Origin: Janthinobacterium sp. PAMC25594
GTDB lineage: Bacteria; Pseudomonadota; Gammaproteobacteria; Burkholderiales; Burkholderiaceae_D
Assembly (NCBI RefSeq): GCF_019443505.1
Contig: NZ_CP080377.1
Span: forward strand, 3,286,001-3,350,000
Direction of reading: 5' to 3'
DNA length: 64,000 nucleotides
Made by a program: the position numbers and the translations under genes
Shown: positions 55,120 through 55,290 of the stretch, one piece after another
How positions within the stretch are numbered: position 1 is the first letter of the stretch
How the letters are laid out: each line of letters begins with the position of its first letter
The notes under the pieces: generated by a model
Told to the model about the DNA's origin: nothing
Database searches by the model: none
Seen by the model: only the letters and a program-made list of their open reading frames with translations

Positions 55120-55290
55120 TATTCCCCTCATGCCGTTCGTGGTATTGCGAACGGCATCGACCGCTGTCAAAATCTTGGTAGGCATATCAAGACCGGGTAA
55201 CTGGATGCCGTATCCGCCCTTAGGCCCCGAGCCAGCTCCGTAGATCTCGCACCAGTTACCCATCCTCCATGTCAAGATCGGACAGTATCT
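55120..55290 (+). ncRNA. Candidate bridge RNA region of the IS110-family element
   Basis: The stretch before the transposase forms three successive stem-loops. ATGCCGTTCG/CGAACGGCAT (55130-55157, 10-bp stem, 8-nt loop); TCTTG/CAAGA (55173-55192, 10-nt loop); GGGTAACTGG/CCAGTTACCC (55195-55261, 10-bp perfect stem enclosing 47 nt). IS110 sensu stricto elements encode a structured RNA in just this place, whose internal loops pair with target and donor DNA. Loop content here is undetermined; exact RNA ends are a guess. An open frame on the minus strand (55087-55275) is probably a by-product. Confidence 0.5.

Follow-up and report, generated by a model that had tools for sequence, protein, structure and literature searches.

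A predicted bridge RNA at the left end of an IS621-group IS110 element probably directs insertion to a REP-like palindrome in Janthinobacterium

A 64,000-nucleotide stretch of the genome of Janthinobacterium sp. PAMC25594 (contig NZ_CP080377.1, positions 3,286,001 to 3,350,000; henceforth the window, in whose numbering all coordinates are given unless a contig is named) carries an IS110-type transposase gene that is preceded by consecutive stem-loops and abuts a palindromic repeat, raising the question of whether the stem-loops belong to a bridge RNA that chooses the repeat as the insertion site. The original prediction, made from the sequence alone, had proposed as much; our analysis supports its interpretation of the kind of element and of the target as largely right, with the extent assigned to the RNA being too short. 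We posit that the locus is, very probably, an IS621-group IS110 element whose left-end bridge RNA aims insertion at a REP-like palindrome. The element and its immediate surroundings comprise the following features:

55115..56326, + strand: IS110 (IS621-group) element, 1,212 bp, right CT core counted in
55113..55114, + strand: CT core at the left junction, in 8/8 copies and at the empty site of the relative G004
56325..56326, + strand: CT core at the right junction; the target resumes as AC at 56327-56328
55350..56309, + strand: IS110 recombinase, open frame of 319 aa (PF01548, 5.2e-26; PF02371, 1.4e-24)
55081..55112, no strand assigned: left part of the target, a GTAG-tagged REP-like palindrome whose 3' arm AATCCGAC is the left target

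The 6.55-Mb genome, a single contig, yields nine PF01548 matches, namely eight near-identical copies of the element and one divergent relative, and the seven copies outside the window are 98.9-100% identical to the one inside it over 1,228-1,253 aligned bases. All eight occupy the identical base position in copies of one repeat: on the left, the 3' arm of the palindrome ends in TAATCCGAC (TAATCCAAC in the copy L009) and is followed by CT and then by TGTATTAT, and on the right ACAGTATCT is followed by AC. The original prediction had called for the ends to be defined by empty sites in related genomes, and G004 supplies an exact one, the uninterrupted CGCTAATCCGACCTACGTGG, joined without a gap. 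Hence, from the copy junctions and the empty site, the element is 1,212 bp long (55115-56326), and its insertion at a shared CT core is clean in all eight copies. The high identity of the copies, and the occurrence of the repeat more than 100 times as an 11-base word, would also suit a spread by homologous recombination between repeats in place of RNA-guided insertion. However, the flanks beyond the repeat differ from copy to copy even as the junction remains base-exact, and the site in the relative is clean, making such a spread extremely unlikely. The noncoding ends of the element measure 235 nt on the left and 15 nt on the right, and this long-left, short-right layout is the arrangement of IS110 and not of IS1111 elements (PMC11208160, section 12; PMC11187229); the noncoding region downstream of the gene that marks the IS1111 group is not seen in the 15-nt right end. 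The ninth IS110 gene (L017, C1:5055000-5058500, ~45% amino acid identity) lies, as judged by eye, directly after an apparent second transposase frame; neither anchor of the window element, left or right, was seen in it, and it was left out.

The transposase is intact, as originally claimed, with a DEDD N-terminal domain (PF01548) and a C-terminal domain with a conserved serine (PF02371), the combination that characterizes the IS110 family. Residues D7, E56, D98, D101 and S237 are invariant over five aligned recombinase sequences, and we take them to be catalytic. Only two solved structures were recovered as matches, IS621 (8wt6, E=1.3e-101) and ISCro4 (9t56, E=9.6e-101), the former of which has S241 as a catalytic residue (PMC11208158). 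Judged by its sequence, the element is a member of the IS110 family with IS621 as its closest relative.

The palindrome (55078-55114) adjoins the element, as had been predicted, and folds as a hairpin of -22.5 kcal/mol (z -5.98). Its word ATCCGACCTAC occurs 137 times in the genome, as against once for the reversed word, and 0-2 times in seven other genomes. Within the window, GTAGGTCGGATTA is found nine times at up to two mismatches versus 0.35 expected, with two of the nine being the arms that flank the element. The target is thus a high-copy palindrome bearing GTAG at one end, in common with GTAG-tagged REPs, which characteristically end in this tetranucleotide at one side (PMC3733652). In the relative L196 the palindrome is also absent from the orthologous place, indicating that the repeat itself is polymorphic between species. 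Unlike the typical GTAG-tagged REPs, the repeat (at up to three mismatches) is absent from the 3.3-kb loci of both Y1-transposase genes found in the genome, so that neither locus presents a RAYT gene flanked by it, and we rejected a REPtron reading; Y1-type (RAYT) genes are likewise absent from some hosts of GTAG-tagged REPs (PMC3733652). Inverted, REPIN-like pairs of the repeat are present in the window at 1433-1468, 30496-30596 and 41762-41861, with the arms of the latter two ~88 bp apart. To the right of the element lies a distinct dispersed repeat of ~150 bp (56337-56489), which many of the listed joined-flank matches in the genus cover alone, at ~82-98% identity, often with at least several copies per genome; within it, 56360-56480 folds on the + strand with a z of -6.08 and has no Rfam match.

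Does the 235-nt left end then encode a guide for this target? We predict, based on its fold and its conservation, that it encodes a bridge RNA in which two 5' hairpins precede a target-binding and then a donor-binding loop:

55130..55344, + strand: predicted bridge RNA of ~215 nt, both ends approximate, from fold and covariation
55130..55157, + strand: 5' stem-loop SL1, from the predicted fold only; a perfect 10-bp stem, ATGCCGTTCG (55130-55139) with CGAACGGCAT (55148-55157)
55173..55192, + strand: stem-loop SL2, between SL1 and the target loop, with compensatory changes; 8 pairs here, one of them G-U
55195..55261, + strand: target-binding loop, with compensatory changes; stem GGGTAACTGG (55195-55204) with CCAGTTACCC (55252-55261), exactly 47 nt inside
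55212..55220, + strand: left target guide ATCCGCCCT, matching the target ATCCGACCT at 8/9 bases, mismatch at position 6
55238..55243, + strand: right target guide CCGTAG, of which GTAG pairs with the target CTAC, 4/4
55276..55333, + strand: donor-binding loop, base stem GATC/GATC 100% paired, 2/4 pairs compensatory
55282..55290, + strand: left donor guide ACAGTATCT, same as the element's right end
55318..55326, + strand: right donor guide ATTTGCAAG, the same letters as in the left end of E. coli IS621

The three stem-loops of the original prediction are all present in the sequence (SL1 with its perfect 10-bp stem, the third with the stem 55195-55204/55252-55261), and the 47-nt region that it had put forward as a guide loop has exactly that length and corresponds to the target loop. 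The interval that it gave for the RNA, 55120-55290, places this loop correctly and misses the donor loop, inside which it ends. That interval folds better than 200/200 dinucleotide-shuffled versions (z -3.84), and the longer 55130-55344 has a z of -2.46, with 2/200 shuffles as good; the structured region reaches ~55342.

Conservation of the stems in relatives, which had been proposed as a check, was assessed on an alignment of 38 of 42 left ends (L140, L141, L143 and L160 were dropped). A structure of 28 pairs has 95.7% of 1,060 cells paired versus 81.9 in shuffles, both-sided changes at 19 pairs versus a shuffled mean of 13.1 (0/500 shuffles as high), 167 cells with such changes versus 42.2, and 42 further pair types versus 37.4 (10/500 shuffles as high), and versions of the structure slid along the alignment have only 22.8-44.2% of cells paired. 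As the structure was built in part from this same alignment, the paired percentage favours it, and the compensatory counts are the better evidence. Compensatory changes affect 10/12 pairs of the target-loop stem and its extension, and in SL2 both-sided changes are seen at 7/7 pairs with 160/160 cells paired, among 23 distinct sequences picked for showing SL2. The stems are thus kept through compensatory changes, and a 5' stem-loop (in the case of SL1 by fold alone), a target loop and a donor loop, the parts expected of a bridge RNA, can all be assigned. A search of 54900-56700 against Rfam gave no match at E values up to 1.

In the lowest-energy fold UCCUC (55263-55267) pairs with GAGGA (55338-55342), just upstream of the recombinase start codon; the ribosome-binding site may therefore be sequestered by the 3' end of the RNA. 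This pairing, together with the extension of the structure up to that site, is what one would also expect if the hairpins served merely to regulate the transposase mRNA as its 5' leader, perhaps acting with small RNAs, and the protein itself found the palindrome; indeed, the REP-inserted IS110-family element ISPpu9 is described as being regulated by two small RNAs and a 5'-UTR structure (PMC8450116). However, the folds that are conserved are the target and donor loops, and a leader need not covary with the foreign DNA flanking it, as both the left and right guides do in the comparison presented below. We accordingly judge a mere leader to be very unlikely and favour the bridge RNA.

The original prediction had proposed that the loop be compared with the palindrome arm at the insertion and that the guide might match the repeat family: the right guide matches in full, at 4/4 bases, and the left guide at 8/9, with one fixed mismatch. 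The target guides are thus complementary to the target save for this position, and the donor guides to the joined ends, under a pairing scheme taken from IS621 (PMC11208158); the left donor guide agrees with the right end at 9/9 bases in 8/8 own copies, the right ends having been located with this very word. We rejected the guide match at this locus as proof by itself, since 8% of random 7-mers of the window's composition match the 47-nt loop at up to one mismatch; its strength comes from covariation over many genomes.

For this purpose we assembled 108 records, 36/40 of a first set including E. coli (L017 and the duplicates L099, L100 and L106 were dropped) and 72/80 of a second set, itself the best 80 of 223 loci (L146, L150, L151, L153, L161, L177, L186 and L188, being partial or without a left end, were left out). 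The left-end motif was found in 90 of these records, from 56 genomes, and not in the other 18. The left guide was read from its alignment column and not picked by match; taking one pair per genome, which drops the second pairs of L009, L090, L104, L105, L114, L129 and L142, and collapsing identical pairs gave 43 distinct guide-target pairs. The core is not independent evidence, as a CTTGTAT-like motif served to locate the left end. Over the seven non-core bases the left guide differs from the left target by a mean of 0.91 mismatches, versus 3.75 when the pairing is shuffled (lowest of 20,000 shuffles, 3.0). Matches are exact in 20/43 pairs and at up to one mismatch in 35/43, the maxima of 5,000 shuffles being 6 and 11. 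The remaining eight pairs have at least two mismatches, the worst being L117, L158/L159 and L136 with four each (the motif of L136 is probably not a true left end), and L113 and L184 with three each. Of the 39 left-guide mismatch events, 12 are wobble-type (G for A or T for C), a count that we did not take as an excess. At the right, the guide has GTAG as its last four bases in 85/90 loci, with CTAC as the target in 81/88; the two agree over four bases in 85/88 loci, two of these four being core by construction, and disagree in L134, L142 and L184. Four loci (L157, L158/L159 and L180) have guide and target changed together. The fifth right-target base is complementary in 45/88 loci, on which we base no claim of a longer guide. 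Guide-target covariation over 5,511 target pairs has already been reported (PMC11208160, section 6).

The mismatch at position 6 of the left guide is kept in 7/8 copies in the present genome (G000), 5/5 in G030, 11/11 in G011, 5/5 in G010 and one each in G008 and G033; one target in G011 (L090) has a second mismatch besides it. A word perfect for the guide would be ATCCGCCCTAC, in place of the natural ATCCGACCTAC. The guide-perfect 12-base ATCCGCCCTACG is absent from the element's own genome and occurs 13 times across 40 genomes of the genus (reversed control 29); ATCCGACCTACG is found in 35 of the 40 and 72 times in its own. In IS621 an rG:dT pair accounts for the natural mismatch, a G/A at position 4 (PMC11208160, section 9), whereas the C/A here would set rC against dT, which is not a wobble pair. 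The exception among the own copies is L009 (C1:2959400-2962600), whose guide ATCCGGCCT faces a variant repeat, ATCCAACCT, with wobble pairs at both differences; this single case is possibly one of natural retargeting within one genome.

We then asked how far relatives share the palindromic setting. Left flanks of at least 45 nt are available for 87/90 loci from 53 genomes, and for the first locus of each genome we sought the reverse complement of the 7-base left target upstream within the flank (60 nt at most) at up to one mismatch. The left target is a hairpin arm by this measure in 43/53 genomes, 33 of them exactly, versus a mean of 9.6 arms (maximum 19), 1.6 exact (maximum 6), when targets are shuffled among genomes, and 6.3 (maximum 13) in base-shuffled flanks. 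Hence, most of these relatives are inserted at the base of a palindrome; no arm at up to one mismatch was found in 10/53, e.g. L122, L124, L154 and L170. This excess over the shuffles is equally what would be seen were the element to read the hairpin structure instead of the 11-base word, with the guide match being secondary; but the armless L122, L124, L154 and L170 still have 7/7 left-guide matches, and IS621 with reprogrammed RNAs recombines at linear target words (PMC11208160, sections 8 and 9). We therefore consider structure reading very unlikely, and retain recognition of the word by the bridge RNA as the preferred account. Copy numbers of four target words in their host genomes led us to reject a high-copy target as general to every host: besides ATCCGACCTAC in the present genome, TTGCACCCTAC is high-copy in the hosts G053 and G071 (58 and 90, versus 0-9 in six others), and two of the four are low-copy, ATCGGAGCTAC occurring once in its own host genome, that of L124 (reversed control 16), and ATCGGACCTAC, in three genomes of Methylomonas, 4, 1 and 2 times versus 4, 12 and 4 for the reversed word.

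How the RNA might be expressed is suggested by the ends of the element, which when joined would form a promoter:

56306..56311, + strand: TTGACG, -35 half of the predicted circle-junction promoter, from the joined right and left ends
55117..55122, + strand: TATTAT, -10 half of the predicted circle-junction promoter, 17 nt from TTGACG once the ends are joined

The stop codon of the recombinase, TGA, sits inside the -35 box. With a cut-off of 4/6 consensus bases in each box and a 17-nt spacing, such a junction promoter passes, on sequence, in 80/88 loci versus a shuffled mean of 3.7 (maximum 9), the cut-off being missed by both IS621 copies of E. coli, which have TTGCAG. In the integrated state the -35 position has 4/6 consensus bases in 1/90 loci and fewer elsewhere, and scanning the locus as integrated revealed no promoter-like site. 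This fits transcription from the circle only, yet would mean that no RNA is predicted from an integrated copy. By analogy with the IS621 model of a circle, a junction promoter, a two-loop RNA aligning donor and target, and exchange at CT (PMC11208160; PMC11208158), transcription, RNA binding and catalysis may proceed here as follows. Excision would yield a circle whose joined ends form the promoter (TTGACG, 17 nt, TATTAT) that would transcribe the bridge RNA; the donor loop, through ACAGTATCT and ATTTGCAAG, would hold the circle junction for the recombinase, while the target loop, through the left guide ATCCGCCCT and the right guide GTAG, would hold the 3' arm of the palindrome and its tag; and the recombinase would exchange strands at the shared CT, leaving the element inserted.

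The insertion of IS621 of E. coli into REPs was reportedly described by Choi et al. in 2003. With IS621 the present element shares the recombinase family, the CT core, a left-end bridge RNA with target and donor loops, the right donor guide letters, a REP target ending in CCTAC and one natural left-guide mismatch (PMC11208160; PMC11208158). It differs in a recombinase ~53% identical to those of the E. coli copies, in a host repeat of ATCCGACCTAC as opposed to ATCAGGCCTAC, and in having two hairpins before the target loop against one in the E. coli left ends; as the account of the IS621 bridge RNA in PMC11208160 (section 6) names one 5' stem-loop, the two-hairpin form appears to be a structural variant. 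ISCro4 (9t56) was compared by its recombinase, which is similar in sequence (E=9.6e-101). REP-targeting elements of the IS1111 group, e.g. ISPa11, have in common with it a DEDD transposase, a guide RNA and a REP target, and differ in that they usually carry the noncoding region after the gene and not before it as here (PMC11187229). ISPpu9 and ISPpu10 of Pseudomonas putida, compared by their description, are likewise IS110-family elements at a fixed position in REPs with a structured leader (PMC1525189; PMC8450116), but are described around small RNAs regulating tnp (PMC8450116). For IS621, both insertion into REPs and the bridge RNA are established knowledge (PMC11208160), and REP targeting by further IS110-family elements has been reported (PMC1525189). 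What we add to the published REP-targeting IS621 and bridge RNAs is this element, its two-hairpin form, the hairpin-flank count and the fixed mismatch. Our literature search, thin for subscription journals and bioRxiv and with the IS621 supplements outside it, found no work linking the GTAG tag with a bridge RNA.

As a probable natural bridge recombinase that combines a high-copy target with eight copies and a base-exact empty site, the element allows its guide rules to be deduced by genome comparison, which here provides 43 distinct natural guide-target pairs, a near-fixed right guide that reads GTAG and a fixed non-wobble mismatch. The comparison thereby makes testable how the targets of RNA-guided transposons shift with a move to a new host, and whether imperfections in a guide are maintained or just tolerated. 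We tentatively put forward, as a possible though doubtful broader reading, that the IS621-like clade tracks palindromes by means of a nearly constant GUAG right guide and a left guide rewritten from host to host to fit the stem of the palindrome used, and that the fixed mismatch is selected because it damps activity. A single guide mismatch is kept across six species, and E. coli IS621 also has a natural one. If true, one family of elements would follow different repeats from host to host, with its right guide reading a tag common to the GTAG-type palindromes of many bacteria.
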